A DNA stretch of 64,000 nt, taken from NCBI GenBank assembly GCA_947507155.1, contig CANNOC010000002.1:62001-126000 (forward strand). The letters run 5' to 3'. Numbering within the stretch: the stretch's first letter is position 1; every line of letters starts with the position of its first letter. Below, in pieces: positions 4,732 to 64,000 of this stretch. The translations under genes and the position numbers were made by a program. The stretch comes from an uncultured Collinsella sp. GTDB taxonomy: Bacteria > Actinomycetota > Coriobacteriia > Coriobacteriales > Coriobacteriaceae. The notes under the pieces were generated by a model. It was given only the letters and a program-made list of their open reading frames with translations. It did no database searches and was not told the origin of the DNA.

Positions 4732-5742
4732 CTAGATCTCGCACACGCTCTGGCGCTCGACAAAGTAGGTCGACACGGCCGTCTTGCAGGTATAGCTCTT
4801 GGGGTTGCGGATGTTGCCCACCAGGCGACGCACCGCGATCTCGCCCACCTCGTGCTTGGGAACATGCACCGTGGTGAGCGGCGGGTTGGAGAAGGCGCCC
4901 AAAGACAGGTCGTCAAAGCCGATGATCGAGACATCCTCGGGCACGCGAATACCGTGCTCGTTGAACGCGCGCATGGCACCCACGGCGAGCACGTCGTTCT
5001 CGGCAAAGAAAGCCGTCGGCAGATCGTCGCGAGAGACGTTGTCGAGCCACACGCCCATGTCGCGATAGGCACCCTCGAGCGTGGTGCCCAACGTGACACG
5101 CCATGCCGGATTGGCCTCGAGGCCCGCGTCCTCAAGCGCTTGGCGATAGCCGCGCTCGCGGTCCTTAAAGTTGCGGATCCGAAGGTCGCCCGCCAGATAG
5201 CCGATTTGCCTGTGGCCTTTCTCGATAAGGTAATCCACGGCACGCAGCACCGAATCGGTGTTGGCGATGACCACGGCATCGAAGTACTGGCGATCGCTCC
5301 AGCCGTCGAGCACAATCAGGTGGGCGGCAGCGTCGGCGAACAGGGCGTAGTCCTCCTCGCCCAGCTCGGTACCCATCAGCACGATGGCGGCCGACGGGTC
5401 GGCGATCAGGCCCTCGACCTGCGGGCGCACGGCGTCCAGGTCGCTAAAGTCGAGCGAGACAAAGCTCGTGCTCATGCCGTGGCGACGCGCCTGGCGCTCC
5501 ACGCCCTCGATGACCGCGGGATGGAAGGTGCTCTCGTCCAGGATGGCGCCCGTCTTGCGCGCAAGCACAAACTGGATGCTCTCGAGCTGCGTCGACTGCT
5601 GATAGCCAAGCGACTGCGCGCACTCCAGGATGACCTTGGCGGTCTCCTCGCTCACGCTGCGCTTGCGGTTGAGCGCGTTGGACACGGTTGCGGGCGAAAA
5701 GCCGGTAATGCGGCTGATCTCGCGGACGTTTGCTTTAGCCAT
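4732..5742 (-). CDS. LacI-family transcriptional regulator
   Basis: A 336-residue protein starting MAKANVREI at 5742 after GGGGGAAC. An upstream in-frame ATG at 5823 would add a non-homologous leader and is rejected. Residues 3-50 form the LacI helix-turn-helix (VREISRITGFSPATVSNALN). The remainder is a periplasmic-binding-protein-like effector domain (IVLMGTELGEED, GYLAGDLRIRNF, SIIGFDDLSLGAF). Such proteins repress sugar genes until a sugar or sugar phosphate binds. Its place directly upstream of the isomerase/kinase/transketolase operon, with matching half-sites at both promoters, makes it the probable local repressor and autoregulator. Confidence 0.93.
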   Translation of the reverse strand: MAKANVREISRITGFSPATVSNALNRKRSVSEETAKVILECAQSLGYQQSTQLESIQFVLARKTGAILDESTFHPAVIEGVERQARRHGMSTSFVSLDFSDLDAVRPQVEGLIADPSAAIVLMGTELGEEDYALFADAAAHLIVLDGWSDRQYFDAVVIANTDSVLRAVDYLIEKGHRQIGYLAGDLRIRNFKDRERGYRQALEDAGLEANPAWRVTLGTTLEGAYRDMGVWLDNVSRDDLPTAFFAENDVLAVGAMRAFNEHGIRVPEDVSIIGFDDLSLGAFSNPPLTTVHVPKHEVGEIAVRRLVGNIRNPKSYTCKTAVSTYFVERQSVCEI

Positions 5743-5825
5743 CGTTCCCCCTAGCATCGGTCGCGGCCGAGCATCGTGGCTTGACCGCCCCGTGGCTCGG
5801 CAACTAAACGACCGCAAATTCAATC

Positions 5826-5847
5826 TAAACAGAATAGTAAATGTTTA
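5826..5847. promoter_or_regulatory. Operator-like inverted repeat upstream of the LacI gene
   Basis: TAAACA at 5826-5831 and TGTTTA at 5842-5847 form an inverted repeat 84 bp upstream of the regulator start. The same half-site appears upstream of the isomerase gene, consistent with autoregulation (inferred). Confidence 0.5.
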
Positions 5848-5924
5848 ATAGCTAGTTTAGCCTGTTGTCAAGCGAAGTGGCACGACTATTCCCCCAACGG
5901 GCGCATTTGTCCATCTTAACGTTA

Positions 5925-8938
<3,014 letters not shown>

Positions 8939-42804: not shown

Positions 42805-43082
42805 TTCTTAGCCTTAACCGTTAATCTGCTTTCTTACGTGCTTGTTAGATAGTAGCATTTTGCTGTTCCCGCGTAACAGTTAATTGAAAATCGTAACGGC
42901 GGCATCTGGGTATTTGCCATTCGTTTGCAACAGTTCTTTAGGTTTTATTTACGCAGCTAGTTGGCTCGCGACTCATTGACAGTGTTTTACCAACCAAATT
43001 GGTATCTTTTTGTTTGGCTGGTATGGTTTGTGCAATTATTAACCCCTTGTCAGTCCGCAGTTAACATGTCAGATTTCCACTT
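42805..43082. other. A/T-rich non-coding stretch upstream of the orphan HTH gene
   Basis: About 280 bp of clearly lower G+C than the surroundings, with no coding signal. It probably includes the promoter of the HTH gene. The ACCAACCAAATTGGT stretch near 42988 is weakly palindromic. Nothing else is recognisable. Confidence 0.4.
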
Positions 43083-43152
43083 ACTTTCCAACTTTCCACT
43101 TAACTTTCCAGCTTTCCACCTTGGGTGGTAAGTTAAGCGGAAAGTTGGAAAG
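43083..43152. repeat. Left copy of the repeat bracketing the AlbA_2 gene
   Basis: The segment 43093-43152 matches 44701-44760 at 58 of 60 positions in the same orientation. It is itself an imperfect palindrome: CTTTCCAACTTTCC on the left against GGAAAGTTGGAAAG on the right, with CCACC/GGTGG at the centre. It lies 35 bp beyond the AlbA_2 stop codon. Confidence 0.85.
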
Positions 43153-44667: not shown

Positions 44668-44760
44668 CCAACTTTCCAACTTTCCACCTAACTTACCAGC
44701 TTTCCACTTAACTTTCCAGCTTTCCACCTTAGGTGGTAAGTTAAGTGGAAAGTTGGAAAG
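44668..44760. repeat. Right copy of the repeat bracketing the AlbA_2 gene, in its promoter region
   Basis: It contains the 60-bp unit 44701-44760 (58 of 60 identical to 43093-43152) plus a partial extra unit at 44668-44700, with repeated ACTTTCCA motifs. It ends only about 10 bp upstream of the AlbA_2 start codon, so it may include that gene's promoter or operator. Confidence 0.85.
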
Positions 44761-44840: not shown

Positions 44841-47800
44841 CTAGTTGGTTTTCGTCTCGTGCCGAATGCCCTCGGTGTTGATGCGCGCTAGCGTGTACGT
44901 CACGTAGTCGGAGTGCGAATAGCCATCAAGGTTGCTAACGTTGACCGGTGTGTCGTCGACAACGTTGCCGGTCATAATATTGGCCGTAAGCACCAAGCGG
45001 TAGTTTGCGTAAGTTTGGTTCTCACCCTCAACATTCGTATTCACTTTAACGCGGAAGGCATGCTTAAAGGCAAGGCTGTTGCCGTCGCGCGTGAGGAACG
45101 CGCCGTTGGTCTTGGTGTCGGTGAACACATAGCTGTTGCCGTCGGCGGATGCCGCACCCGTGCCTAGGTAATCGCTGCCGAGCACCGTAATGTAGTTCGA
45201 GATATCGCCGACCGGAGCATAGCCGCCATCATCTTGCCGCTGCTCCAGGCTCAGCGTGTAGGTCACCGTGTTTGCGGCGTCGATCTTAGCCTCGGCGCCC
45301 GTGAGCTTGCTCAGGTCGTAGGTACCCACCAGAGCGATCTCGCCGTCAGCGGACTTGAGGTCATCGATGTTGATGCCCAACTGGGATTTCTTAGACGCCT
45401 CGAGCGCGATGGTCGATGAGCCCACATCCATACGGTAGTAGCCGGCGCCGCCATCGTTGTATGCCGAGTTGCTACTGGTGCTGAGCGTGTCGGCATGCGT
45501 GGAAAGGTACGCGCGGTAGTTGGGTTTGGTGTAGCGGTCGGTGCCGCTGTTCTGCGAGGCCACGATACCCGCCTGGCAGGCAGGCTCCGTCATGGTGAGC
45601 GCGGCCCTCATGGTAACGGTGAAGGCGTTGACATGGTTCTTGGCGATCTCGCGCAGGCCCGACATATCGATGGGATTACCCTCAGCATCGGCAAGCACCA
45701 GTGACATGTCGCCACCGTTCGCAGTCCAACTAAGGCCCGACACCACTGGGGTCTCCTTCGTGCCGGCCAGATTCCAACCCGACCCGCCCCAGGTGTAGTA
45801 GTTATCACCCACCTTAACGTAGAACTCATACGTGCCCTGCGTGCCCGTGGGGTATCCTACCGAGCCCGCGATGACGCCATCGTGATAGGTGACAAGCGAC
45901 GAATCGAGCTGATAATACAGCGCGTCAGAGCTCGTGTATTGCTGGCTCGAGTCAAACGTCACGGTGTCGCTCACGTTCATGGAAAGCGAATAGGTGGCTT
46001 CCTTGAGCTCCATCCGGTTGATGCTGTCCCTGTTGTCGACGAGGTTACGCTTGTTGTCAACGAGGCTGTGCGTGTAGTTTGATGCCACGCTGTAGGTCGA
46101 GGGCGTATTCTGGTGCCCATCCTCGGCAGCCTTGCCGTCGGCTGCTTTCTTGCCTCGCAGCAGGTAGTTGATGTGCTCGTTGAGGCTCGTGTCCACCGTG
46201 GTGGCGGTGTAGCCGTTGACGCCCGCGGACCCCGCCGGCGTGCGCACCACCAAGTAGAAGTTTTCGCTCTTGGGCTCTTCCTTATCAACGGAGAGGGTAT
46301 AGAACGTGCCCGTCGCGTCGGAAGAAGTGCGCGCGCGGTAGTACGCGCCATCGACCTTGGCGCCAGCCATCTTCGCGAGTTCGGCCTGGCTCTTGTCCTT
46401 GACCTCGTCATCGGCGAGCTTGACCCAAGCGCCGTCCTTGTCCTCCTTGGCCTCATCGGCCTTCACGCCCACGATTTCGCTCAGCCACGGTTCGGTGTAG
46501 TAAGCCTTGTTGCCAGCGTCCACAAACTCGGTGAGCTTGACTGACGTCGCGCCGCCCGTGCCCACCGTGTAGTGATATTCGCGGCTGTTGTTGGCCGTGT
46601 CCACGAGTGTGAGCTGTGTACCCTCGGGCAGCGTGGCACCGAAGGTAATGCTCTTGTTGAGCGGACCCATAGAGCCGCCGGCTTCGAGCAGCGTGTTCCA
46701 GCCGTAATCGACCGGCTTGCCCCGAGCGCTGCCATAGGTCCAGGTAAGGTAGCCGGTCATGGTGTCGCCGCTGCTCACAAGTACGTGCTTGTCGTATTTT
46801 GTCGCATAGTCGGCAGCCTTGAAGTTCGCACCTTCGGAGTAGGTGGCGGTAAAGTCGATCTCGAGCATGCGCTTGACGATGATGGGTACCTGTACACGAT
46901 AGCTCTGGCCGGCCTCGCTAAAGGTGACCGTAAGCAGCGTGAAGCGCCCCTGCTCATTGTCCCAGTCGGTGCTCGCGCGGAATGCCATAGAGCTCGTGCC
47001 ATTGTTGAGCACCTTGAGCGTGGGCGCTTGCGAGGCGGCTACGTCCTTGACGAAGGTGCCGTTATCGGCGAGCGAGAAGACCTCGGCGGTGGCGGTCACA
47101 TGCGCGGTGCTGCCGTTGAGGCGGCAGGCATCGGAGAAGCCGCCATTGGTCACGATGTTCAGGTAGCTCTCCACCGTCGTGGTATCGTTGCCCGGAATCA
47201 CGAGCACGGGGAAGTCAGTTTTGGCCTTCTTGTCCGAAGTAATGTTGTTAGCGTTATAGGTGCTACGCGAGCTGTCCGCGCTATAGGTGCTCGTGTTTTG
47301 GTATGCGCCGGCATCATTGATGCCGGCGATGTTGGTGTAGGTGTAGCGGCCGGGAACGCGGGCACCCGCTTGGCTTTGGATGGTCGTCGCGGTGTCAATG
47401 GCGGCGCCGTCGCCAAACAGGTAGCGGTCGGTGGTGTCGCCGTCGGAGGCACGCACCGCCATCGTGCTCACGGGCCTCGTGGTCACGTACGGACTCGTTG
47501 CCGTGGTAGCAGTATCGCCTGCGCCGTAAAGCGTTTTGTTCTCGTTGGGCGCGGCAGCCGTGCCGTTGTAGTCGCCGAAGGCAATATAAGTTTTCTCGTT
47601 AACAGCAGCCGTATTCGTATTGGTCGTGTAAACCATCGGCGGCAGGTCGCTCGTGGTCTTGCCACTACCGGGCTTTACTTCCACGCCCGCTGCGGAAAGG
47701 CTGTACTTACCATCCCCCGTGTCAACCTCGCCCAAGAGTACGCCCTGGGTTTTGCCCGCATTGTAGCTATTGCTGTCCATGAGCACGTTTAACAGATGGA

Positions 47801-50800
47801 ACTGGCCGCGCCCGTCGCCCATAATGCCGCCGTTGGACCTTTCGCTAAACGTGGTGTTGGATACCTTTGTGTTGGTAACGTCGATGACGACGGATCCGCT
47901 GTTACTCGCGTTATTCGCGCCCAGCAGACCGCCGCTCCAGTTACCCTTAATCGTAGCGTTCTCGATCGCGATGTTGTTGCAGGCTATATTCACATTGCTG
48001 AAGAAGTAGCCGATAAGCCCGCCCGAGCATTTGCCGGTGCCGGCGATGCTGACATTCTTGACACTGCAGTCGTCGAACCAGTACTTGTTGGGGCTACCGC
48101 TACTCGTAACCTCACCAATCAGGCCGCCCGCATTGTAGATGCTATTGTTCGTTCCGGCCTTATCGCCGATGACGGCGTTCTCGGTGCCGTTTCCGCCATC
48201 AATGCGCACGTTGCTCATAGTAATAACGCCGCCACGGGCGCGTCCGACCACGCCGCCGGCGCCCATATGGTCATCGGAGTTCGACCCGGTGGCTAGCACG
48301 TTTACCCCAGAGATGACTGCCGTGCACGACGACTGGGCCGCTGTGGTGGTGCCGATGTTGGTGTTGACCGAGATATCGCTTCTTTCGACATAGCCGAGCA
48401 CGCCGCCCACGTAGGGCACTGTCCCTGTGGCAGTTATGGTCGAGTTTTTGCCAACGGTCCTTTCGCTCACCCCTGTGCCTGCGGTTGTCCACACACCGCA
48501 CGCCGAGGCGACCGTACCCACATAGCCACCGACATTCTTCTCGCCCGTGACGTTAAGGCCAGTGTATGAGCAGTCATAGAGATACGCGGGGCCCCACCCG
48601 TCCCCGAACTCGACCATATAGGTTCTGTCTTCGCTCGTAGTTCGTCTGGCGCGGCCCGAGCTGCCAAGAAGCCCTCCTACGCTCTTTGCGCCCGACACGG
48701 TGCAGTTCTTCATCTGCACGTTGCGGTAGATGCCGCACGTGCCGTCGTCGTAGTTGGCCGTTGCACCCGCCAAAAGGCCGGCACCGGTAAGGTCGTTCGG
48801 CGCCTCTCCTGGTTTGGCTTCGCCGTTGGTGTCGATATAGGTGAGCGCTACGTTGCAGTTGCTAAAGGTGAGGTCTTTGACCTGCGCGCCGTCGTTCGCG
48901 GTGACGCTCTGCCCCACATTGGTGGAGGTGAACATCACGGTGCTGAATAGACCACCCACGCCCGAGACCTTATAGTCGTCGTCGGCGTATTCGACGACGC
49001 CGTAGGCGGTGCCTTCGGTACCCACCGTGATGGTGGCGCCGTTACCGTCGATCGTGGCTACGTGCGGCGTAATACGGTCGCGGTCGGTGCCCGGCTGGTT
49101 CGAATTGCAGGCATTGGAATAGTAGCGGCCGTTTAGGCCCACGTACCCCGTGCCGTAGTCGGTCATATCGTAGGTGTCGCCCTGCTTGAACTCCAAGCTC
49201 ATGCCGATCGATTTCGACGCGCACACATAGCCCGTTTGGTAGTCGGCAGCGTAGGACGCCACCAGGTAGGGCGAATTTACATCGTCATCATGGTCGAGCG
49301 GGCCGTGCCACCTCTGCTTGCCGGGGGCCTTCTGGTCGTCGTTTTTGGCGATTTCGAAATCGCCGGCAGCACTCTCAGGCTTGCCCACATTTGCGTAGTT
49401 AGCATTCCGTACCTTGCCATATTCCTTGTTGCCAAACAGGTAGCCGCATATCGCCGGGTCTTGCGAATCGCTGCCCCAGTAAGCCTTGGAACCGCGGAAC
49501 ACGCCATTATTGGAGTAGTTGGTATGTGCCGCGCCAGCACCCGCACCCGAGCTGATGATGGCCGAGAGCACCAAAAGGCCCTGGGCGTTTTTCACCATGG
49601 TCACAGGAGCCTCGGCGTTAGTGCCGAGGTACTTGTTGTCGGTGCCCGTGGTGGTGACACAGGGGGTTCCTTTTTTTGTGAGCTCGTTAATCTGGTAGTT
49701 AGCGTTACCGTTTTCAACCTTACAGCCCTCGCTAAAGGCATAGCCATCAATCACGCGACCGACGTAGGGATTGTTGTAGAGATCAAAGTTGCCCTTTCCC
49801 AGACCACGAGATTTGTCACCAGTTCCAGCACGCCAGGAAGATTTTCCGCTTTTGTCCATATTGCGGAAAATCACGCCGCCACCCGCAATGGCACCGACGT
49901 AGCCACCAATGGGAACAAGATGCGGCTTGTCGCCACCGCCCGTGACGGTAAATCCCGTTGTAGGGTTTTCGGCCGTCGTCCCATTAACGACCACGCCATC
50001 GATAATGTTATCGCCACCAAGGATGCAGCCGACAACGCCACCGAAAAACGCCGTCGGAACGCCGTCGGCATCCTTGGCAGAATAAGTAATAGTCGCCGAC
50101 GCGTTCACATAGCGAATATTCAGATCGCGCACCACGCTGCCGTAACTATAGGGAATAAGGCCGCGAAGCGAACCCTCGTTATTCTCTATCTTGATGGTTG
50201 CGTTTTTATTATCACTGCCAAAGTTGCCAACGATGACGCCCCTAAACGGGTTGGCCCTATTTCCAAAACCGCCAAACGATGCGCCGTCGAGAGTAATCGT
50301 ATTGCCCTCAGTAGGCTCGATGCTGTAATACGCGCTCTGCATATAGCGGTGCATGGTTTCGTCGCTCAGCGTCTGCGGGGAATTGGTCGACGCGTCTCCG
50401 GTCTTCTTCTCCCATTTATTATCGGTACCGTTCGCCTGCTTGTAGACGTACGTAACCTCATTGTCGGTCGAGTGATCGCTGCTGCGGCGAGTGCAGAGCC
50501 TACCCTGGTCGGCGACAATGGTGACCTCCCAGCCGTCAAGCGCCGTCATGTTATTAATGTAGTTGGCAATGGCATTCATCTCCGCCGCGTTTGTGACGGA
50601 ATAAGGATCGCCGTAGGTACCACATCCCATTACCAGCTTTGGAATGCGCTGGTTGACTTTAATTTCGTGATACTGGACGCCATCCTCGGCGGCTTTTCCC
50701 TTGTAAACATAAGGAAGGTAGTCACCGAACCAAGGCCTGACGTCACCGTCCTTCTTACCATCAACCGTCACATAGCCGCTCACGGCACCATACGTCGCTT

Positions 50801-53800
50801 CGTCGTAATACCAAAGCTGCTTGCCCGGGTACTCCGTACTCCCATCAATCTCGGATCCGTAGGTCACCTTGCCCGCATCGGCATCAGCCCTAGTAAAGGT
50901 GTAGTCCGCAGAGCCCGTGCCCGTGCTTCCGTAGCCAAAACTCTCCAGCAGGCTCGCATGGGTGAAGATCGTATTGTTCTCTTGGCTGGGCAAGCTGATT
51001 TGCTCAAACTTCGCCGTCACCTGATCGGCCTCACTGCCTACACCAAGCTTTCCGAACAGCGACGTAGCCGCCTTGGTGCCACTCGTGTACCCAGTAGTCT
51101 TGATATTCTTCGCGTTCAGGCTCACGTACTTCTGCATCTCGTTGATGAGCAGAGGCATATAGGCGTTAGCGTCCGTGGCGCTGTTGGCGCCGTCGACAAT
51201 CAGATTGTTGAGTGTAAGATCATCAATTGAGATCTTTCTAATCTTGGTGCCATTGCCGTCGCTGGACCCATACACGTAGCGGCACACGAGCGCGCCCGAT
51301 GAGCTTCCGCTCGCGCCAATAGCGTCAGTAGAGCTCTTTCCGTCATTGATAACGGGCCCAACGGTACCACCCAAAGTGACGTTGCTTACTGTGAGATCGC
51401 CGTCTGCCACCGTTTGAAAAAGACCGCAGTGCATGTTCTCGTGCTGGGTGGCATCGGAGTTTAGCTTGTTGCCATTCTGCTCGGCCTTGATCTTGGAGTA
51501 GTAGAAGGTGATGGCCGCATTATTAACCGTCACCTCTCCGATCGGTTGAGTGGGATAGTAGCTGTAGCCGGCCAAATCGATTGTGCCCGTTATGGTTATG
51601 GAATCATCGAGCCCTGTCGTACCATCGGGAACGATTGTCGAACGAATACCGGCGGGAGCATAGCAGAAAGCAGACCATAAGAGCAGCTTGTCCGCTGTAT
51701 CGATTTGACTGCCACTAAAGCCGCCTTCACAATTCTTAGAGGCTATGTCGAGGTTGTAGAAGTAGCGGGTATTGCCGTTCGTATTCTGGCTTCGACCGAA
51801 AGACGAGCGATTATGGTAGCTGTTGTCTTTTGTGGAATCGCCGTCCATGTCCAGCTTGTTTTTCTGTGTGTGTAGCGAAACGACCGTGTTCCAGTCGGCG
51901 TCCATGAGCTTGCTGCCGTTGTTTGGTTTTACACCGCTGCCAACCCATTCATCGAAGGACGTTACGCCCGACGCAACGATGGCCCCCTCGCCGGTGGGCA
52001 CCCTATAGGCGGTATCCCAATAAGCCCTGTCCTCCAAGTACAGGCCTAGGTAGCTCTCGACGCCATATGTCGTCTTATCATCCACCTTGCAGCCGCGGCA
52101 AACTAGAACGCCGAGCGTCTGAGCGGCGCCTGCATTAATCTTTGTGCCCGAGAGATCGATGGCGTAGTTGTTGATAATCCAGTGACCGCTGGCTGCGTAT
52201 ACAAGGCCGCCAAGCTCCTTGGAATCATCCACAGTCGCGATTATAGAAGCGTTGGTCGTTTTCAAAGCATAGGAGTTTTCACTCTTGTTAATGTTGTCAT
52301 CTCCGATAGTTACGACCGCGTTGCCCCAGCTATAACCCAAGAGACCGCCCACGCCATTGAGCTTATCGCCGTTCTTTCCGACTCCCATCTTGAACGAGTT
52401 GAACGAAAGGCCCGTAATGTTAACGTCCTTTTTGGCCGAGTTGGCTATTGCCCCATCAGCCCCATAGGTGCTCTGTGCGATGCAGCCGATAAGACCGCCG
52501 ACCTGGGCAATCTTGCCGCTGGTGCAATTGCCGGTTTCGATTGATCCGGCGACTTCGAGGCCCGCAACATTGAATGACGAGCCATAATCGCCCACATAAC
52601 CAATGGCGCCGCCAATGCGACTATTGCCGTTAAGCGTTTTAGTTGCAGCGATGGTCGCTTGAGCCCTGCTGTTATCCTTAAACGCAACCGTAGAAGCCGC
52701 CGACACGCTGCCCGCAATACCACCAATGTTCACTTCGTTGCCGAACGTATCATCACACGCGATATTCGTTTTGCACGTTACGCCAGACAATGGCAGGTTG
52801 CCGACGATGGTACCTGCAAGCGACCCGGCATCGATAGCCGAACCGTTATCGAACTTCATGGAACCAGCGATTGTGACGTTGGAGATGGTTGCGCCGTTGA
52901 CGGCCGCGAACAAGCCCAAGCGGCCGTGGCGGTAGATTTTGCCGTTGCCGTTGCTCGTGTCATTGTCGTCGAGCACAGCTTCACCACGCTTGCCGTACGG
53001 CTCGCCGACGGCAAGGTTAATTGTGCCGCCACCGTTCAACGTTCCCGAGAAAACTTGCGAGCCGTCTGCACGATCCTGCGCGAAACCCGTTAGGCCCGTG
53101 CCCTTGAGATCAATAGTGCCGTTCACCGTAATGGTCGAGGACTGCAAGCCGTTAAGGTTGTTTTCGGTAACGCCGTCAACCATCGAGTAGTAGCCGTTGG
53201 TTTGCCAGGTAATCGCCAGCTTTGCGAAATCGTCGATACTTGCCAGCGCAAATGCATCGCCAGTTTTTACGAGCTTAGAGCTAAAGTTCCACTGGTGCTC
53301 TTTGTTGATGGAGATGAGGTCCTCGCTCAACGGGTTGCCCAAGCGAATGACCTGGCCGTAGCTGTACACGTCATCGATCTTGACGGGCGTAGAGGGGCGC
53401 TTATATTGCCATTTCTTGATATCGCCTGCGGCGGCGCCACTATCGCTTCCGCTACCGGCGGCAAAAATCAGCGAGTTGAAGTTCTCATAAATCAGCTGCG
53501 CGGTGTGATCATTTTCCACGAAGGTGGCCTCCGACAGGTCGGTGATACCGCTGAACTTGACGATGCCGAGCCACGACGACCCAACGACTCCGGCAAAGCC
53601 GCCGTTTGTGCCGCCGATGGTAGCGCCGCTGGCGGTTTTGACCTTCAGGCCACGCACTTCTAGAACGTTGTTTGTGTCCACGACGCCCACGGCGCCGCCG
53701 TATTTGCCATTTGCACTGGCGTAGCCCGAGGTTGAGCATGTCACTGTTGCATCACTGATGACCACGGCGGACACGTTAGTACTCCCGCCGCCTTCGCCAA

Positions 53801-55550
53801 GGTAGCCTACTAGGCCGCCTGCGTAGGTGAGTTTGCCGTTGGAGCCCACGCCGAACGACACCGCAGTATCACCCTGCACCGTAAAGGCATGCAGCGCGTC
53901 GCCGTTCTTCCTCCCCCACAGCTTGCCCACCAAGCCGCCGTAGTTGCCGTGCTTGTTGTCATCCTTGCCGTTTTGTAGCGTGCTTGTATACGAACCGCCA
54001 TTGACGGCCACGTCGCCGTTCGATATGTCGAGTACGCCGAACAGTCCGCCGGCGGAAGGGGCAGCGCTCGTGTTGGACACACTGAGCGCCACGCCCTTGC
54101 CAAAGTCGAAGATGCCGCTGTTGATGGTGAATGCGTCGGCAAACGAGGCGTCGCCGATAAGGCCGCCTGCATACGTCCCGGCAGATGACGATCCAACCGC
54201 ATGCGCGGGCTTGATGGCGACAGCCTTGCCCGAGGCTTCTTTTCCACTGTTATCCTTGCCCACGGTGAGCGTGAGCTTAGTCGCCTTACCGATAAGACCG
54301 CCCGCCGCGTTTTCGCCTGCGACGCTCAGCGCCGAGACATCGATGCCAGTTGGCAGGGCGACGGTGGCACCCTCCCGCGCCTCGCCGATAAGACCCCCCG
54401 CGTTGGCGTCAGCGGCTAACGCGTTGATGGTGGGCGTGCCGTTGAGGTTGTCCGGCAGGGTAAGGCCCGCAAGCGTAAGCGATGCTCCTTCGGCAAGGGT
54501 GTTCGCAAGCAAGCCCATGTTGCCTGCGCTCGATTGCATATCGACTGCCAGGGGGCTGTTCGCGCTTGTCGTATAGGTGGCGTTAAGCGTGAGCGCGCCC
54601 GTGACCTCGCCCACAAGCGGCGAGGTTAGCTTGCAGATGTCCTTTTCGGCATCGCTCTTGGGCGTGCCCACGGTAACGGTGGCAGCAAGCGTCTTGTCCG
54701 CGCCCGTGACCTTTGCGGCCACGATGGGCTGGGCATCGGTACCCTTCCAGGTGAGCTTTACGGTGCTGTTGGCGTCGCTGAGCTCGATGTTGTTGAAGAG
54801 CGTCTTGTTGGCGGTAAGGGACCTGCCGCCCAGGTCGAGCGTACCTTTGAAAGGGTAGGCATCGCTGCCGAAGCCCTGGAACGTGAGGCTACCCAGGCCG
54901 TCCACGATCTCCGCGCCGCACACGTCGAAGTCGATGCCGGTCGAGCCACCTTTGGAGATGTTCGCGTTCTGGTAGATGGCGGGATCGGTGTTGGAGATGG
55001 CGATAAGGTCGGCGTTGGACTCAAAGGTAATGGCCGTGACGGCGCCCAAGTCGTCAGTGATGACATTGCCGTCACCCAACGCGTGCCTGAGAGCCTCGAC
55101 AGTAGCGATGGGGTAGTTGGCGCCTGCCTGATCAGCAGCATCCGCGTCCGCGTCATCCGCTTGTTCTTCGTCAGCAGCGCCCTCATCGGTAGCCGCATCA
55201 TCTTGGGACGCGTCGCCCTCCGTTGGGGTATCGCCGTTAGTGGTTCCATCGGTCGTGGAGTCCTGCGATTCGCCAGCGTTGGTAGAACCGTCGCCGCCCT
55301 CGGTAGCGCCAGCGTCGGCGCCCGGAGTCGTTGCGGCGTCATCAGATGCAGCCTGGTCAGCATCTTGCAGCGCGGTGGCCACGCCATCCTGTACGGAGCG
55401 CGCCGTGTTGCCCGCGGCGCGCGCGGCGGAGACGGATGCCTCCATAACGGCGTCGAGCTCTTGTGCGAACACCTCTGTGGAGGGCGCGAGCGCCTGGAAA
55501 ATCATGATCGCAGTCAGGCATGCGGTTGTTATGCGCTTTGCCGTTCTCAT
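44841..55550 (-). CDS. Giant secreted repeat protein (3569 aa), putative surface adhesin
   Basis: A Sec signal peptide (residues 1-29, ending EVFAQE) is followed by an Ala/Asp/Thr-rich acidic low-complexity stretch (about 45-145). Residues about 150-2700 form a long series of beta-strand repeats with more than 20 GGLxG-type turns (GGLIGKATK, GGLVGYLGE, GGLLGYSWG, GGLIGYFFS), resembling GLUG-motif beta-helix adhesins. The last ~800 residues look like beta-sandwich modules, ending near YANYRLVLTANIM. There is no LPxTG sorting signal and no C-terminal membrane helix, so attachment must depend on partners, perhaps the three membrane-anchored proteins encoded upstream. Part of the middle appears lower in G+C. 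The function (adhesion, fibre formation) is inferred. Confidence 0.88.
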   Translation of the reverse strand: MRTAKRITTACLTAIMIFQALAPSTEVFAQELDAVMEASVSAARAAGNTARSVQDGVATALQDADQAASDDAATTPGADAGATEGGDGSTNAGESQDSTTDGTTNGDTPTEGDASQDDAATDEGAADEEQADDADADAADQAGANYPIATVEALRHALGDGNVITDDLGAVTAITFESNADLIAISNTDPAIYQNANISKGGSTGIDFDVCGAEIVDGLGSLTFQGFGSDAYPFKGTLDLGGRSLTANKTLFNNIELSDANSTVKLTWKGTDAQPIVAAKVTGADKTLAATVTVGTPKSDAEKDICKLTSPLVGEVTGALTLNATYTTSANSPLAVDMQSSAGNMGLLANTLAEGASLTLAGLTLPDNLNGTPTINALAADANAGGLIGEAREGATVALPTGIDVSALSVAGENAAGGLIGKATKLTLTVGKDNSGKEASGKAVAIKPAHAVGSSSAGTYAGGLIGDASFADAFTINSGIFDFGKGVALSVSNTSAAPSAGGLFGVLDISNGDVAVNGGSYTSTLQNGKDDNKHGNYGGLVGKLWGRKNGDALHAFTVQGDTAVSFGVGSNGKLTYAGGLVGYLGEGGGSTNVSAVVISDATVTCSTSGYASANGKYGGAVGVVDTNNVLEVRGLKVKTASGATIGGTNGGFAGVVGSSWLGIVKFSGITDLSEATFVENDHTAQLIYENFNSLIFAAGSGSDSGAAAGDIKKWQYKRPSTPVKIDDVYSYGQVIRLGNPLSEDLISINKEHQWNFSSKLVKTGDAFALASIDDFAKLAITWQTNGYYSMVDGVTENNLNGLQSSTITVNGTIDLKGTGLTGFAQDRADGSQVFSGTLNGGGTINLAVGEPYGKRGEAVLDDNDTSNGNGKIYRHGRLGLFAAVNGATISNVTIAGSMKFDNGSAIDAGSLAGTIVGNLPLSGVTCKTNIACDDTFGNEVNIGGIAGSVSAASTVAFKDNSRAQATIAATKTLNGNSRIGGAIGYVGDYGSSFNVAGLEVAGSIETGNCTSGKIAQVGGLIGCIAQSTYGADGAIANSAKKDVNITGLSFNSFKMGVGKNGDKLNGVGGLLGYSWGNAVVTIGDDNINKSENSYALKTTNASIIATVDDSKELGGLVYAASGHWIINNYAIDLSGTKINAGAAQTLGVLVCRGCKVDDKTTYGVESYLGLYLEDRAYWDTAYRVPTGEGAIVASGVTSFDEWVGSGVKPNNGSKLMDADWNTVVSLHTQKNKLDMDGDSTKDNSYHNRSSFGRSQNTNGNTRYFYNLDIASKNCEGGFSGSQIDTADKLLLWSAFCYAPAGIRSTIVPDGTTGLDDSITITGTIDLAGYSYYPTQPIGEVTVNNAAITFYYSKIKAEQNGNKLNSDATQHENMHCGLFQTVADGDLTVSNVTLGGTVGPVINDGKSSTDAIGASGSSSGALVCRYVYGSSDGNGTKIRKISIDDLTLNNLIVDGANSATDANAYMPLLINEMQKYVSLNAKNIKTTGYTSGTKAATSLFGKLGVGSEADQVTAKFEQISLPSQENNTIFTHASLLESFGYGSTGTGSADYTFTRADADAGKVTYGSEIDGSTEYPGKQLWYYDEATYGAVSGYVTVDGKKDGDVRPWFGDYLPYVYKGKAAEDGVQYHEIKVNQRIPKLVMGCGTYGDPYSVTNAAEMNAIANYINNMTALDGWEVTIVADQGRLCTRRSSDHSTDNEVTYVYKQANGTDNKWEKKTGDASTNSPQTLSDETMHRYMQSAYYSIEPTEGNTITLDGASFGGFGNRANPFRGVIVGNFGSDNKNATIKIENNEGSLRGLIPYSYGSVVRDLNIRYVNASATITYSAKDADGVPTAFFGGVVGCILGGDNIIDGVVVNGTTAENPTTGFTVTGGGDKPHLVPIGGYVGAIAGGGVIFRNMDKSGKSSWRAGTGDKSRGLGKGNFDLYNNPYVGRVIDGYAFSEGCKVENGNANYQINELTKKGTPCVTTTGTDNKYLGTNAEAPVTMVKNAQGLLVLSAIISSGAGAGAAHTNYSNNGVFRGSKAYWGSDSQDPAICGYLFGNKEYGKVRNANYANVGKPESAAGDFEIAKNDDQKAPGKQRWHGPLDHDDDVNSPYLVASYAADYQTGYVCASKSIGMSLEFKQGDTYDMTDYGTGYVGLNGRYYSNACNSNQPGTDRDRITPHVATIDGNGATITVGTEGTAYGVVEYADDDYKVSGVGGLFSTVMFTSTNVGQSVTANDGAQVKDLTFSNCNVALTYIDTNGEAKPGEAPNDLTGAGLLAGATANYDDGTCGIYRNVQMKNCTVSGAKSVGGLLGSSGRARRTTSEDRTYMVEFGDGWGPAYLYDCSYTGLNVTGEKNVGGYVGTVASACGVWTTAGTGVSERTVGKNSTITATGTVPYVGGVLGYVERSDISVNTNIGTTTAAQSSCTAVISGVNVLATGSNSDDHMGAGGVVGRARGGVITMSNVRIDGGNGTENAVIGDKAGTNNSIYNAGGLIGEVTSSGSPNKYWFDDCSVKNVSIAGTGKCSGGLIGYFFSNVNIACNNIAIENATIKGNWSGGLLGANNASNSGSVVIDVTNTKVSNTTFSERSNGGIMGDGRGQFHLLNVLMDSNSYNAGKTQGVLLGEVDTGDGKYSLSAAGVEVKPGSGKTTSDLPPMVYTTNTNTAAVNEKTYIAFGDYNGTAAAPNENKTLYGAGDTATTATSPYVTTRPVSTMAVRASDGDTTDRYLFGDGAAIDTATTIQSQAGARVPGRYTYTNIAGINDAGAYQNTSTYSADSSRSTYNANNITSDKKAKTDFPVLVIPGNDTTTVESYLNIVTNGGFSDACRLNGSTAHVTATAEVFSLADNGTFVKDVAASQAPTLKVLNNGTSSMAFRASTDWDNEQGRFTLLTVTFSEAGQSYRVQVPIIVKRMLEIDFTATYSEGANFKAADYATKYDKHVLVSSGDTMTGYLTWTYGSARGKPVDYGWNTLLEAGGSMGPLNKSITFGATLPEGTQLTLVDTANNSREYHYTVGTGGATSVKLTEFVDAGNKAYYTEPWLSEIVGVKADEAKEDKDGAWVKLADDEVKDKSQAELAKMAGAKVDGAYYRARTSSDATGTFYTLSVDKEEPKSENFYLVVRTPAGSAGVNGYTATTVDTSLNEHINYLLRGKKAADGKAAEDGHQNTPSTYSVASNYTHSLVDNKRNLVDNRDSINRMELKEATYSLSMNVSDTVTFDSSQQYTSSDALYYQLDSSLVTYHDGVIAGSVGYPTGTQGTYEFYVKVGDNYYTWGGSGWNLAGTKETPVVSGLSWTANGGDMSLVLADAEGNPIDMSGLREIAKNHVNAFTVTMRAALTMTEPACQAGIVASQNSGTDRYTKPNYRAYLSTHADTLSTSSNSAYNDGGAGYYRMDVGSSTIALEASKKSQLGINIDDLKSADGEIALVGTYDLSKLTGAEAKIDAANTVTYTLSLEQRQDDGGYAPVGDISNYITVLGSDYLGTGAASADGNSYVFTDTKTNGAFLTRDGNSLAFKHAFRVKVNTNVEGENQTYANYRLVLTANIMTGNVVDDTPVNVSNLDGYSHSDYVTYTLARINTEGIRHETKTN

Positions 55551-60124: not shown

Positions 60125-60205
60125 ATTCGGATTTTCGGGTGGTTGCGATTCGGATTTTCGTGTTCATATAATTCGGATTTTCTTGTGTATGAGATTCGGA
60201 TTTTC
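60125..60205. repeat. Four 12-bp direct repeats at an exact 23-bp period
   Basis: ATTCGGATTTTC occurs at 60125-60136, 60148-60159, 60171-60182 and 60194-60205, separated by unrelated 11-bp spacers. A 23-bp period is about two helical turns, so bound proteins would sit on one face of the DNA. The block lies 60-140 bp upstream of the DUF4143 ATPase start, consistent with an operator array. Confidence 0.9.
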
Positions 60206-60300: not shown

Positions 60301-62331
60301 CTACAGCTCGTTGGCCGCGTGATATGCCGTGCGGATGGCGCTGGCAATGTCGGCGGTTCGCTCGCCCGAGCAGTCGCCCACGCAGGTCACGGGCACCGTC
60401 ACGCCGTCCAGGTCAAACGCGTTGGCCTTGGAACCCACGGCCATCACCACGTAATCGCAGGCGATCTTCACCGGCTCCTCGGCGCCGTCCTCGGCAGTGC
60501 GCACGGCCTCCACGCCCTCGTCGGTAATGGCGGTCAGGCGGGTCTTCACGTGCTGCTCCACGTTATGCTCGGCAAAGTCGCTCATAATCAGCGGCAGAAT
60601 GGTCTCGGACTCGCCCGCGGCAATCTTATCGAGCATCTCCACGATCGCTACCTCGCAGCCATGCTGCAGCAGGTACTCGGCAGTCTCGGTGCCCACCAGG
60701 CCACCGCCAATAACGGCGACGCGGCCCGTAAGCTCCACCTTGCCGGCCAGCACGTCCCAGCTCGAGACGACCTTGTCCGAATCGGCACCCGGAACGGGAA
60801 TGACCACGTCGTGCGCGCCCACGGCCACAATCGCGGCGTCGGCGGCGTTGAGGTCCTCGGCGGTAGCGGCATGGTTGAGCTCGACCTTCACGCCCAGGCC
60901 AGGCAGAATCTTCTCGTAGTACTCGACCGAGCGCATGATCTCGTCCTTGCGCGGAGGCGCGGCCGCCAGCACAATCTGGCCGCCCAGATGATCGCTCGCC
61001 TCGTAGACGGTCACGTCGTAGCCGCGCTTGGCCGCCACGCGCGCGGCCTCCAGGCCGGCAATACCGCCGCCCACCACGGCGATCTTCTTGTCGCCCTCGC
61101 CCGGCTTGATGGCGATGGTCGCCTCGTCGCCGTTCTCGGCATTGAGCACGCACGAGATGTACTTGCGGTTTTGAATCGCGTCGACACAGCCCTTATTGCA
61201 GTTGAGGCACTCGCGAATGGGCTCGCCCGTGGCGGCCTTCAGCGCAATGTCGGGGTCGCACATGAGCGAGCGGCCATAGGCGACGATGTCGGCAGAGCCA
61301 TCCTCCAGGATCTTCTCGCCGGCCTCGACCGAGACCACGCGGCCGACGGTTGCCACCGGCACGGAGACCAGGGCCTTGACGCGCTCGGCCACGGGCAGCG
61401 TCCAGTTGTAGGGCATGGCGCCCATGGGCGGAATGGTGTCGCCCATGTTGCCGGTGTGATTTGCCTGTGCAACCTGGATCATGTCGATGCCCGCGCTCTC
61501 GAGCAGCTTGGCAAACTCGCAGGCCTCGTCGGGCTGCAGGCCGCCCTTACCGCGCGGCGTGCCGTCGGGGTTCTCCATGATCACGGGGAGCTTGTACTCC
61601 ACCATCAGCTGCGGCGCGGCTTCCTTAATGGCAGCGACGACCTCGAGCGCATAGCGAACGCGGTTCTCGAACGAGCCACCGTACTCGTCGGTGCGCTTGT
61701 TGAGGATGGCCGAGCACAGCGAACCCACCAGGCGGTCGCCGTGGACCTCGATGGCGTCGATTCCGGCCTGCTGCGCGCGAGCGGCCGAGGCAGCGATAGC
61801 CTCCTTGATCTGGGTGAGCTGCTCTACGCTCGCCTCGTTCACGAAGTGCTGCATATCGTGGTGCAGCTTGGCATAGGCCTGTTTGCGGATCTCGTTGGAC
61901 TCGGCCATCTTGGCGGCAAAGGTCTCCTCGTCACCGGCGGCCTTGGCTTCCTGCGCGGCCTTGGCGGCGGCCATGGATCCCATGACCATGCGGCCGACGC
62001 CGGGCACGTCGTACTCGGGGTGGAACAGCTGCAGCGCGACCTTGGCACCGTGCTTGTGGACGGCGTCGGCCAGCGCCTTAAACGTGGGGATCTGGGCGTC
62101 GGTCGCCAGCTTGGGCGTGGGGCTTGCGGTCATAACGGGAGCGACGTCGCCGATGACGATGTAGCTCACGCCGCCACGGGCCAGGCGCTCGTAAAAAGCC
62201 AGGCTACGCTCGCCAATGGAACCGTCGCGCTCCTCGTAGCCGGTGGTAAGCGGCGGGAACATAATGCGGTTCTTGAGCTCAAGGGGGCCAACCGTAATGG
62301 GCTGGAGCAGCTTGGATGCAGGTGCGGTCAT
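60301..62331 (-). CDS. NADH:flavin oxidoreductase / 2,4-dienoyl-CoA reductase-type enzyme
   Basis: A 676-residue flavo-iron-sulfur enzyme starting MTAPASKLLQPI at 62331; the ATG at 62337 is too close to GAGAGGA. The N-terminal FMN barrel (about 1-365) has LKNRIMFPPL and the active-site segment GIDAIEVHGD. The cluster motif CLNCNKGC with a later ISC provides four cysteines near 335-360. The C-terminal part (about 385-676) has FAD/NAD motifs (VVGGGIAGLEAARVAA, AVIGGGLVGTETAEYL). This is the FadH/BaiCD/BaiH layout. Substrates include enoates, dienoyl-CoAs and bile-acid intermediates; specificity cannot be called. Confidence 0.9.
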   Translation of the reverse strand: MTAPASKLLQPITVGPLELKNRIMFPPLTTGYEERDGSIGERSLAFYERLARGGVSYIVIGDVAPVMTASPTPKLATDAQIPTFKALADAVHKHGAKVALQLFHPEYDVPGVGRMVMGSMAAAKAAQEAKAAGDEETFAAKMAESNEIRKQAYAKLHHDMQHFVNEASVEQLTQIKEAIAASAARAQQAGIDAIEVHGDRLVGSLCSAILNKRTDEYGGSFENRVRYALEVVAAIKEAAPQLMVEYKLPVIMENPDGTPRGKGGLQPDEACEFAKLLESAGIDMIQVAQANHTGNMGDTIPPMGAMPYNWTLPVAERVKALVSVPVATVGRVVSVEAGEKILEDGSADIVAYGRSLMCDPDIALKAATGEPIRECLNCNKGCVDAIQNRKYISCVLNAENGDEATIAIKPGEGDKKIAVVGGGIAGLEAARVAAKRGYDVTVYEASDHLGGQIVLAAAPPRKDEIMRSVEYYEKILPGLGVKVELNHAATAEDLNAADAAIVAVGAHDVVIPVPGADSDKVVSSWDVLAGKVELTGRVAVIGGGLVGTETAEYLLQHGCEVAIVEMLDKIAAGESETILPLIMSDFAEHNVEQHVKTRLTAITDEGVEAVRTAEDGAEEPVKIACDYVVMAVGSKANAFDLDGVTVPVTCVGDCSGERTADIASAIRTAYHAANEL

Positions 62332-62472
62332 GGACATTCCTCTCTTGTAGGCGCGGCGGCGATGATGCCACGTAGTTGTCTAGAGGATATGACATGAGAG
62401 CACGGCGGCACAACGAAAATCGGCGAATATCAGGTGACGGCAGGTGGATGGGGCGGGACGGCCCGTCGGTTC
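62332..62472. other. Upstream region of the flavin oxidoreductase gene
   Basis: A 141-bp segment separates the start codon from the palindrome array. It presumably carries the promoter. No palindrome other than the array, and no riboswitch, is visible. Confidence 0.35.
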
Positions 62473-62930
62473 GTCTCAATCTGTAACAGTTACTCGGCAA
62501 AAACCGGGTCTTACTGTTACAGATCAAGACAAACGGGAGCGGTCCGTCGGAAAATCTCGATCTGTAACACTTACAGACCAAAAACGACCCTAGATGTTAC
62601 AAATCGAGACGAACAAATTCGGTCCGACCAAACATCTCAATCTGTAACATCTAGGCCCACTTTTGGCCCCTACCTGTTACAGATCGGGACAACGGGAACC
62701 GTCCCAACAAAATGTCTCGATCTGTAACATCCATCGGCCAAAAACGACCCCAGGTGTTACAGATCAAGACAAACCAAACCCGCCTGCTAGAAAATCTCAA
62801 TCTGTAACAACAACTCGGCAAAATCCGTCCCTCGTGTTACAGATTTAGACAAACAAAGATCGTCCTGCCGAAACATCTCGATCTGTAACACCTAGCCGCC
62901 CAAATCGGGTCCAGATGTTACAGATCGAGA
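62473..62930. repeat. Array of six palindromes at an 80-bp period
   Basis: Six units begin near 62474, 62555, 62635, 62714, 62795 and 62876, so the spacing is 79-82 bp. Each has a left arm like CTCAATCTGTAACA and a right arm like TGTTACAGATCAAGAC, with a 20-25-nt centre that is often GGCCAAAAACGACCC-like. The linkers between units are partly conserved around GGTCCG. Centre sequences differ while the arms stay matched. It is not coding. It lies between the flavoenzyme and tRNA-fMet. Confidence 0.9.
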
Positions 62931-62979: not shown

Positions 62980-63010
62980 CAAAAAAGCTCGCCGGCTAGG
63001 CCGACGAGCT
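62980..63010 (-). terminator. Terminator of the tRNA-fMet transcript
   Basis: On the minus strand AGCTCGTCGGC and GCCGGCGAGCT form an 11-bp stem with a short loop and are followed by TTTTTTG, 10 bp past the tRNA 3' end. Confidence 0.92.
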
Positions 63011-63019
63011 GCAAGTTCT

Positions 63020-63096
63020 TGGTCGCGGGGGCAGGATTTGAACCTACGACCTCCGGGTTATGAGCCCGGCGAGCTACCAGACTGCTCCACCCCGCA
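63020..63096 (-). tRNA. Initiator tRNA-Met (CAT anticodon), CCA encoded
   Basis: A 77-nt cloverleaf with anticodon CAT inside CTCATAA. The anticodon stem has three consecutive G:C pairs next to the loop (GGG/CCC), the initiator hallmark, and the sequence is close to Escherichia coli tRNA-fMet. The acceptor reads T1...G72 instead of the usual C1 x A72, so the end pair is a U:G wobble. The 3' ACCA is encoded. Confidence 0.95.
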
Positions 63097-63293
63097 ATGT
63101 CTGGGCGCCTCATGTGCGCAAGAAAGAATATTACGCGGGAGTTCGGTAAACGGCAAGGAAAATCTCGTAGAGCATAATTCCTTCATATTTAAACCCCTCA
63201 GCCCATATCACTGTAACCGAATCGCAGCCGAGCGCCGTCGACGGCGCGTATACAATGGTGCGCGTCCTTTTATGCCAACACTGGGAGTAGACA
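63097..63293. other. Divergent region between tRNA-fMet and coaX
   Basis: A 197-bp gap holding the tRNA promoter on the minus strand and the coaX promoter on the plus strand. CGACGGCGCGTATACAATGG (ending near 63260) contains a -10-like TATACAAT for coaX; this is the only assignable signal. Confidence 0.45.
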
Positions 63294-64000
63294 TGCTGCT
63301 CGCTATCGATATGGGAAACACGCAGACGGCCATGGGTCTGTTTGACGGAGACGAGCTGGTGCAGTCGTGGCGTATGCCCACCGACCGCTCCTATACCGCG
63401 GACGAGATCCACGTGCGCCTGATGGGTTTCTTTAAGATGTACGGCCTTTCGCTCGATGCGGTCGACGCGATCGCCTTTGCCGGCGTGGTGCCGCAGCTCT
63501 CGCGCGAGTGGCACGCCGTGGCCGACCGCATTGCCGCGGATGCCATCGTCATCGGGCCGCAGACGGCCGCGGTGACCAAGCTGCGCGCGGCGCGCCCCCA
63601 GGCCGTGGGTGCCGACCGCGTCGCCAACGCCGTTGCGGCCGAAACTTTCTACGGCGCGCCGGCGATCGTGGTGGACTTTGGCACCGCGACCAATATCGAC
63701 GTCATCGATGAGGACGGTTATTACATTGGCGGAGCGATCGCGCCGGGCATCCGCATCTCCATGGACGCGCTTGCCGCCCGTGCCGCCAAGCTCGCCAGCG
63801 TTCCGCTCGAGGCGCCGGAGCACGCCATCGGCCGCGATACCGAGGAGTGCATCAAGGTCGGCGCCGTGATGGGCGCCGCCGCCATGGCCGAGGGCCTGGT
63901 CGCGCGCATGAAGCGCGAGCTGGGCCGCGAGGATGCCACCGTTATCGCCACGGGCGGTCTCGCCGGCATCGTCGCCGATTCGACCGATGCCTTCGACGTG
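63294..64000 (+). CDS. coaX: Type III pantothenate kinase, 3' end outside the window
   Basis: The visible part is 235 codons from ATG 63294 (GGGAG upstream). The N-terminus MLLAIDMGNTQTAMGLFDGD is the phosphate-binding DxGNT motif of CoaX. GADRVANAVAAETFYG, the IVVDFGTATNIDVI active-site stretch and the GGAIAPGIRISMDAL loop follow. CoaX phosphorylates pantothenate to 4'-phosphopantothenate, the first step of coenzyme A synthesis. It belongs to the ASKHA fold and is insensitive to CoA feedback. Only the last part of the protein is missing. Confidence 0.96.

Follow-up and report, generated by a model that had tools for sequence, protein, structure and literature searches.

The closest described counterparts of the repeats reported here are the REP sequences and the BIMEs. 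BIMEs have been described as dispersed extragenic palindromes that occur in clusters, alternate in orientation, and are regularly spaced (PMC2817692). According to the same account, REPs have GT(A/G)G heads, RAYT genes are always flanked by two REPs, and the REP copy number is usually greater than 100 per genome (PMC2817692); families of 20–100 copies or fewer are also noted (PMC3733652). The stems given in Table 1 of PMC3733652 are 5–13 bp in length for the GTAG type, with loops of 2–20 bp, and 8–9 bp for the CGTC type, with loops of 4–5 bp, and the same paper mentions Bradyrhizobium REPs whose loops contain up to 27 bp of complementary bases. Another precedent is provided by the AimR dimer of SPbeta, which is described as binding two inverted 6-bp boxes across a 25-bp spacer, with similar affinity for spacers of 23–28 bp (PMC6458997).

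In this report, we describe a family of palindromic dyads from Collinsella, one array of which is found in the window (the whole stretch of 64,000 nucleotides that was analyzed). As in the REP/BIME systems, the palindromes are dispersed and extragenic, with 20 of the 20 arrays examined in the source genome (that of the window) lying between genes. Their half-sites are regularly spaced (40–41 bp) and alternate in 211 of 241 clusters, and the number of units varies among strains. As in the AimR operator, at least as it is described in PMC6458997, the dyad is composed of inverted boxes that are 25 bp apart, and the sequence of the spacer carries little weight. Unlike that operator, the half-sites are approximately 20 bp in length, the spacing is almost invariant, and the sites are chained and dispersed.

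The tRNA-Met array and the anatomy of its unit

The 15-bp half-site TGTTACAGATYGAGA was found 12 times at positions 62474–62930 of the window, with its orientation flipping every 40–41 bp, and these copies form six dyads. Most copies carry 0–1 changes, and one copy carries 2. The array and its neighborhood are composed of the following features, with the array and dyads listed without a strand.

62474–62930: whole array, 12 half-sites alternating every 40–41 bp
62474–62529: dyad unit 1, 15-bp arms and a 26-bp interior, 56 bp in total
62555–62609: dyad unit 2, 15-bp arms and a 25-bp interior, one change in the right arm
62635–62689: dyad unit 3
62715–62769: dyad unit 4
62795–62849: dyad unit 5
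62876–62930: dyad unit 6, interior found again in the 15 other orthologous loci where this array end is preserved
60301–62337, minus strand: NADH:flavin oxidoreductase-type flavoenzyme (Oxidored_FMN and Pyr_redox_2), context
62986–63010, minus strand: hairpin resembling an intrinsic terminator, located between the array and the tRNA, from a consensus scan, context
63020–63096, minus strand: tRNA-Met (CAT), context
63293–64000, plus strand: coaX, type III pantothenate kinase, extending beyond the end of the window, context

The first-pass annotation described six palindromes, about 80 bp apart, that were distinct from a simple repeat and adjacent to an initiator tRNA-Met. Six dyads are indeed present with a period of 80–81 bp (the left arms start 81, 80, 80, 80, and 81 bp apart), and the distinction from a simple repeat is borne out, but the palindromes are not confined to one locus. 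The entire 80-bp unit was also held to be palindromic; it is instead a 55-bp dyad (15-bp arms and a 25-bp interior) followed by a linker of 25–26 bp. The tRNA-Met (CAT) was confirmed on the minus strand, and its anticodon stem has GGG:CCC pairs, consistent with an initiator tRNA. With one mismatch allowed, TGTTACAGAT has 13 matches in the window, 12 of which are located inside the array. The mean in dinucleotide shuffles of the window was 1.42, and 0 of 100 shuffles reached 13. Elsewhere in the window, short tandem repeats were noted at 60125–60205 (period of 23 bp), 43074–43119 (20 bp), and 44670–44729 (20 bp), and the 3569-aa open reading frame at 44841–55550 has the look of a secreted surface protein.

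The consensus for the unit is roughly WWYR-TCTCRATCTGTAACA-NNTAG-N6-AAA-N6-CTANN-TGTTACAGATYGAGA-YRWW. By information content, the arms are fixed, a TAG half-motif is positioned two bases inward, an AAA tract occupies the center, and G/C-rich positions are found between them. The YRWW motif flanks the arms on the outside, the ends of the arrays included. The loci of the source genome were collected using an arm-only pattern with no spacing imposed, and the interiors were found to be 25 bp in 52 of the 53 units, the exception being unit 1 of the window array (26 bp). The linkers in this genome are 25 bp (18 cases), 26 bp (15 cases), or 23 bp (1 case). Across all loci, the interior measures 25 bp in 603 of 612 cases and the linker 25 or 26 bp in 379 of 389, in a count that includes redundant loci, accepts gaps of 5–80 bp, excludes half-site matches that are 8 bp out of register, and draws most of its entries from a spaced pattern that constrains the interiors and leaves the linkers free. 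Counted per distinct sequence, the corresponding values are 464 of 471 and 294 of 301.

The 211 alternating clusters are strictly so and contain whole dyads only; the others of the 241 (redundant loci included) comprise 10 odd-numbered clusters and 20 single arms that could have matched by chance. The polarity of the A-tract between neighboring units is not fixed (117 same, 98 opposite). Half-interiors common to non-orthologous units number 10 in the source genome (column-shuffle mean of 1.6, maximum of 6), 8 in G001 (mean of 1.2, maximum of 6), and 4 in G002 (mean of 1.0, maximum of 4). One recurring half-interior, GTWACTCGGCAAAA, is joined to differing other halves in non-orthologous units of the source genome. 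These counts are a lead toward possible swapping at the middle of the interior.

Distribution, variation, and genomic position of the family

The checks proposed by the first-pass annotation included a genome-wide count of copies and a comparison of unit number between strains. The count demonstrates a dispersed family. When ATCTGTAACA-N20-40-TGTTACAGAT was searched for without mismatches, 39 strict dyads were returned at 20 loci of the source genome, and one further degenerate locus on contig C12 brings the family to at least 21 loci. When up to 3 mismatches per arm were allowed, 53 units were counted at 20 loci. Of the 21 loci, 20 were examined, and the contig C1 locus was left out.

Within the genus, the strict dyad was found in 23 of 43 genomes, namely, the source genome and 21 others with 17–44 copies, and G036 with a single copy. 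All 22 of the genomes searched from the C. aerofaciens complex bear the family, with 17–44 strict copies each, and five other genera of the same taxonomic family, represented by 22 genomes, lack the strict dyad. The window is assigned to the C. aerofaciens complex on the basis of the named records that bear the repeat and of the near confinement of the palindromes to genomes whose coaX shares 97% or more identity with that of the window. A looser core pattern, applied to 15 chosen genomes (12 from the genus and 3 from sister genera), gave one match each in G036 and G037. The unit in G036 is the tRNA-Met-proximal unit and adjoins the same tRNA, and the unit in G037 is located upstream of a Clp ATPase gene, as it is at locus L023 of the source genome. 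These single units may be either transfers or relics.

In a scan of a contig collection for the repeat, the matches listed (at least 80) include 79 from Collinsella and 1 from a Bacteroidetes MAG contig. No phage record matches the whole array. The sole match in the plasmid collection is to an 899,693-bp C. aerofaciens record, which looks chromosomal because ribosomal-protein genes are found near the match, and one IMG/VR contig carries units beside the host flank of locus L032 of the source genome. No published account of the palindromes was found among the matches listed from the CC-licensed PMC literature. Within those searches, the family is a real and undescribed lineage-specific variant of the interspersed palindromic repeats.

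The arms evolve slowly. The numbers of substitutions per bp in the last unit, relative to the source genome, were determined to be 0.036 for the arms, 0.072 for the interior, and 0.140 for the tRNA-side flank at 15 coaX-fetched loci, which are those of the 21 other such loci that keep the last-unit interior word and were not chosen by their arms; the required 9-base word lowers the interior rate, and changes private to the source genome are counted repeatedly. For 39 orthologous pairs, selected from 103 orthologous rows for equal arm number, the values were 0.049 for the arm, 0.133 for the interior, 0.116 for the linker, and 0.112 for the flank, which is partly coding. The arm rate of these pairs is biased low, because an arm was no longer recognized once it had more than 3 mismatches (a bias that the coaX-fetched set avoids) and because the two members of some pairs may be the same genome, taken from two collections. 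The half-sites therefore change 2–4 times more slowly than the flanks, and the interior drifts more freely. The length of the interior is likewise slow to change and differs in 1 of 105 comparisons from the same 39 pairs. Linkers differ in 9 of 66 comparisons (by 2 bp at most). Of the 217 measurable 26-bp windows of the flank, 40 differ, the largest difference being 10 bp; a further 17 windows could not be measured. Because the length of the linker in orthologues varies about as often as that of the flank, the claim for a conserved linker length rests on its narrow range across the family.

The number of units differs between close relatives, mostly by whole units. At the coaX site, 16 of the 22 orthologous loci (the source genome included) carry 1–12 detectable arms, 3 hold other DNA in place of the array, and 3 are on contigs whose ends are no more than 122 bp upstream of the tRNA. 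The number of arms also varies at other orthologous sites, mostly by whole dyads, and the odd counts in this comparison include out-of-register matches. In several relatives (loci L091, L104, L108, and L261) other DNA is found directly beside tRNA-Met at the expected place of the array, and in G001 units with nearly identical interiors are found approximately 13 kb from tRNA-Met. The arrangement in G001 suggests insertions at the tRNA. At the site of locus L027, 9 of the 22 genomes are empty and 11 are filled, and two contigs (L282 and L286) end early. Since the site is empty in 9 genomes, at least this array is dispensable. On L026, similar arrays with like interiors (1672–1807 and 8629–8764) flank a 2214-aa open reading frame, which suggests that a gene was duplicated together with its array.

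The intergenic location of the 20 arrays was determined by heuristic ORF calling; as exceptions, three called frames overlap arrays by 6–16 bp, and there are three short overlapping frames (88–98 aa). By their flanking genes, 11 of these arrays are tandem, 4 are convergent, 3 are divergent, and 2 are at contig ends. The window locus was scored as divergent because the ORF calling skips the tRNA, and it is tandem if the tRNA is counted. In the redundant set of 190 arrays from all loci, 72 lie between convergent genes, 65 between tandem genes, and 53 between divergent genes. On L029, a 364-aa protein without a Pfam match (5292–6386) is located between two arrays that are 4 and 9 bp away.

The first-pass annotation had also considered a replication-linked site. 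With dnaA as the origin, the Rayleigh test for strict-pattern loci gave p values of approximately 0.04 for G002 (17 loci) and 0.05 for G001 (15 loci), two nearly closed genomes that are not independent observations because many of their loci are orthologous. An origin-side bias is thus visible but is too weak to carry a claim.

Two other dispersed repeats were observed. The terminator-like hairpin CCACAAAGGTGCCTGTCCCCTTTGTGG (for example, L027:1440–1482) occurs in near-identical copies, with 15 pattern matches in the source genome, 18 in G002, and none in the four genomes that were searched from outside the complex but within the genus. In G002, 4 of the 18 hairpins are found within 150 bp of a palindrome array, compared with a mean of 0.06 under random placement (0 of 20,000 placements reach 4); the binomial p value is 0.0014, assuming an intergenic share of 12%. 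The other repeat, at L027:1614–1691, is a hairpin around AAAGGTAGATTTTT...AAAAATCTACCTTT with approximately 81–86% identity to several other loci.

Alternative explanations for the arrays

It is possible, although we consider it doubtful, that the dyads are non-autonomous mobile palindromes of the REP/BIME kind that owe their spread in trans to a RAYT or some other transposase and are now mostly inherited vertically. The period would then be a relic of tandem amplification, and any binding of a protein would be secondary. The dispersed, extragenic, and alternating clusters do resemble BIMEs as described (PMC2817692), the number of units varies, and the L027 site has empty and filled alleles. 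These alleles define no clean mobile unit, however, because they differ by a larger segment of approximately 180 bp that includes another, terminator-like hairpin. All 22 family-bearing genomes have Y1_Tnp genes, as do 15 of the 21 other genomes of the genus (Fisher p = 0.009, uncorrected for kinship). This distribution keeps a mobile origin alive and favors a link to RAYTs, but it is confounded by kinship, and the 15 other genomes have Y1_Tnp genes with either no copy of the family or a single copy. The source genome contains two such genes.

C36:7886–8209 and C26:12683–12883 (L038 and L039): Y1_Tnp genes of the source genome, resembling REP-associated tyrosine transposases below the cut-off

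The two proteins score 69.7 and 30.5 bits against the model for the REP-associated transposase, for which the cut-off is 80. Unlike the REPs, no half-site (with up to 3 mismatches) was found in the 10–11 kb around these two genes or in 32 fetched Y1_Tnp loci from the source genome and its relatives (approximately 1.7–3.3 kb each), which are part of the Y1_Tnp matches across the 43 genus genomes. The ranges and lengths of the matches suggest that no single type of Y1_Tnp is present in every family-bearing genome.

The dyad itself also differs from a REP. There is no GTAG or CGTC tag; the outer ends read GAGA-YRWW, and the inner motif, mostly CTAG or TTAG, is located inward of the arms on both sides. 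The 15-bp arms enclose a nearly fixed, non-complementary interior of 25 bp, which is beyond the loops tabulated in PMC3733652, the complementary Bradyrhizobium loops of up to 27 bp aside. By the soft criterion of copy number, the 17–44 strict copies per genome (53 looser units in the source genome) are also unlike the usual REP families in the two accounts cited above, and the palindromes are found almost only in one species complex. The layout is BIME-like, yet the family is not filed as REP because the tag, the flanking of RAYT genes (as examined), and the tabulated length of the loop all fail.

An explanation in which the arrays are transcribed as RNA hairpins, to function as an RNA stabilizer, a terminator relay, or a small-RNA sponge, is improbable. 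Stem-loops in RNA and an sRNA sponge were among the suggestions of the first-pass annotation, and the stability of the fold is as anticipated, with z = −13.97 relative to shuffles for the window array. This value says little, because any palindrome must fold in this way. Among the 52 units of the source genome that were compared, compensatory pairing is absent at the mirrored positions of the interior, and complementarity at positions 16, 25, and 27 is below the level expected from permutation. In 31 of these units, a match is found between the two arms at position 5 (24.5 expected, p = 0.046). The same pattern was found for 450 distinct, partly related units, where most interior positions avoid complementarity, position 22 is neutral, arm position 5 matches in 246 cases (187 expected), and position 6 is slightly above expectation. 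In the L110 lineage, a paired change is found in both arms. Covariation of the arms at positions 5 and 6 and in L110 would be predicted by a hairpin, either as RNA or as a single strand of DNA, or by conversion of one arm by the other.

The sense strand of the source genome has 20 G-U and 6 A-C mismatches, which would favor an RNA, but this excess did not hold in the larger set of 165 tandem units from all loci (50 and 37, p = 0.20), and strand-biased deamination gives the same sign. The counts for all loci are 47 and 61 for convergent units and 41 and 46 for divergent units. The arrays are found between tandem, convergent, and divergent genes alike. By a loose consensus scan, a terminator-like hairpin is found within 150 bp of 6 of the 20 arrays of the source genome, and 5 of these 6 are oriented to end a transcript before it enters the array, one of them without a called gene on that side. 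In Rfam, the tRNA alone reaches the gathering score, and five microRNA matches are below the threshold. On balance, a double-stranded site fits best.

A guide array of the CRISPR or TIGR type, with variable spacers between regular repeats, is very improbable. The regular repeats and the variable inserts are shared with CRISPR, but CRISPR repeats are direct and of one orientation, whereas the half-sites of Collinsella alternate. CRISPR spacers are unrelated and strain-specific; the interiors of the dyads carry their own motif (TAG...AAA...CTA), are shared by different species at orthologous sites, and drift in much the same way as the flanks. The family is furthermore spread over approximately 20 short arrays. 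TIGR-Tas arrays have an adjacent tas gene with a Nop-type domain. The separation from CRISPR that was made in the first-pass annotation therefore holds.

It is similarly hard to credit that the array is an operator for the adjoining flavoenzyme, the tRNA, or the pantothenate kinase. The array does begin 136 bp upstream of the start codon of the flavoenzyme, and an operator for this gene had been suggested at the outset. This suggestion is unsupported because the 19 other arrays that were examined neighbor unrelated genes, and the array itself is inconstant at the orthologous loci, as given above. A scan of 30 flanking proteins returned a Clp ATPase, three GH1 glycosidases, a PTS component, a glutamate synthase, an Nramp protein, a P-type ATPase, a phosphomethylpyrimidine kinase, an elongation-factor-type GTPase, a HicA toxin, an amidohydrolase, and regulators of the DeoR (two), GntR, and LacI types, with no single functional theme and no consistently linked gene among the 30. 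The flanking genes may lean toward carbohydrate functions.

A one-off local tandem duplication without function, the outcome that the first-pass annotation had named as contrary to its own proposals, can be dismissed, given 17–44 strict copies in each of the 22 genomes of the complex and the slow evolution of the arms.

A putative symmetric protein on phased dyads

The explanation that we favor, with a probability of about one half, is that the arrays make up a family of BIME-like sites, specific to this lineage, that are bound as double-stranded DNA by a putative symmetric protein on phased dyads. DNA-binding proteins arrayed along the repeat had been one of the original suggestions, and this is the idea that fits best. 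A protein-bound dyad is favored because the interior is almost always 25 bp and shows no compensatory pairing, the arms evolve slowly, most arrays are composed of whole dyads, and the motif of the half-site extends both inward (TAG) and outward (YRWW). The 25-bp dyad operator of AimR is a precedent for the geometry, but a dimer alone does not explain the near-invariant 25 bp, because AimR is reported to tolerate 23–28 bp (PMC6458997). No binding protein for the dyad was identified in this sequence analysis.

The symmetric protein, probably a dimer, would read two half-sites of approximately 20 bp that are approximately 40 bp, or four helical turns, apart, and the length of the interior between them would count for more than its sequence. 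Copies of the protein may bind cooperatively along 1–8 units, in about twenty intergenic regions of each chromosome, which would be possible because chained units keep the half-sites alternating every 40–41 bp. The role of the protein would most likely be architectural or genome-wide, rather than that of an operator for one gene, and the number of units probably changes through recombination between arms.

Dispersed architectural sites such as parS, matS, and the SlmA and Noc sites each consist of one short palindrome and have known protein partners. Like these, the Collinsella dyads occur at some twenty or more sites per chromosome, with a positional bias that is possible. Unlike them, the dyads are extended and are found in phased arrays, and the origin bias is weak. 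A more specific version of the favored explanation, which we regard as rather unlikely, is that the arrays dock a lineage-specific chromosome-organizing protein that would polymerize on half-sites every four helical turns and wrap or bridge the DNA at approximately twenty intergenic stations per chromosome. Such a system would have originated within Collinsella and would be a bacterial counterpart of phased chromatin islands.

Collinsella aerofaciens is a common bacterium of the human gut. A single 63-bp dyad is a ready bait for finding the putative DNA-binding protein. Because the number of units differs between close relatives, the arrays are usable as typing markers, and the same variation constitutes a natural experiment for asking if the length of an array influences the genes beside it or the behavior of the chromosome.
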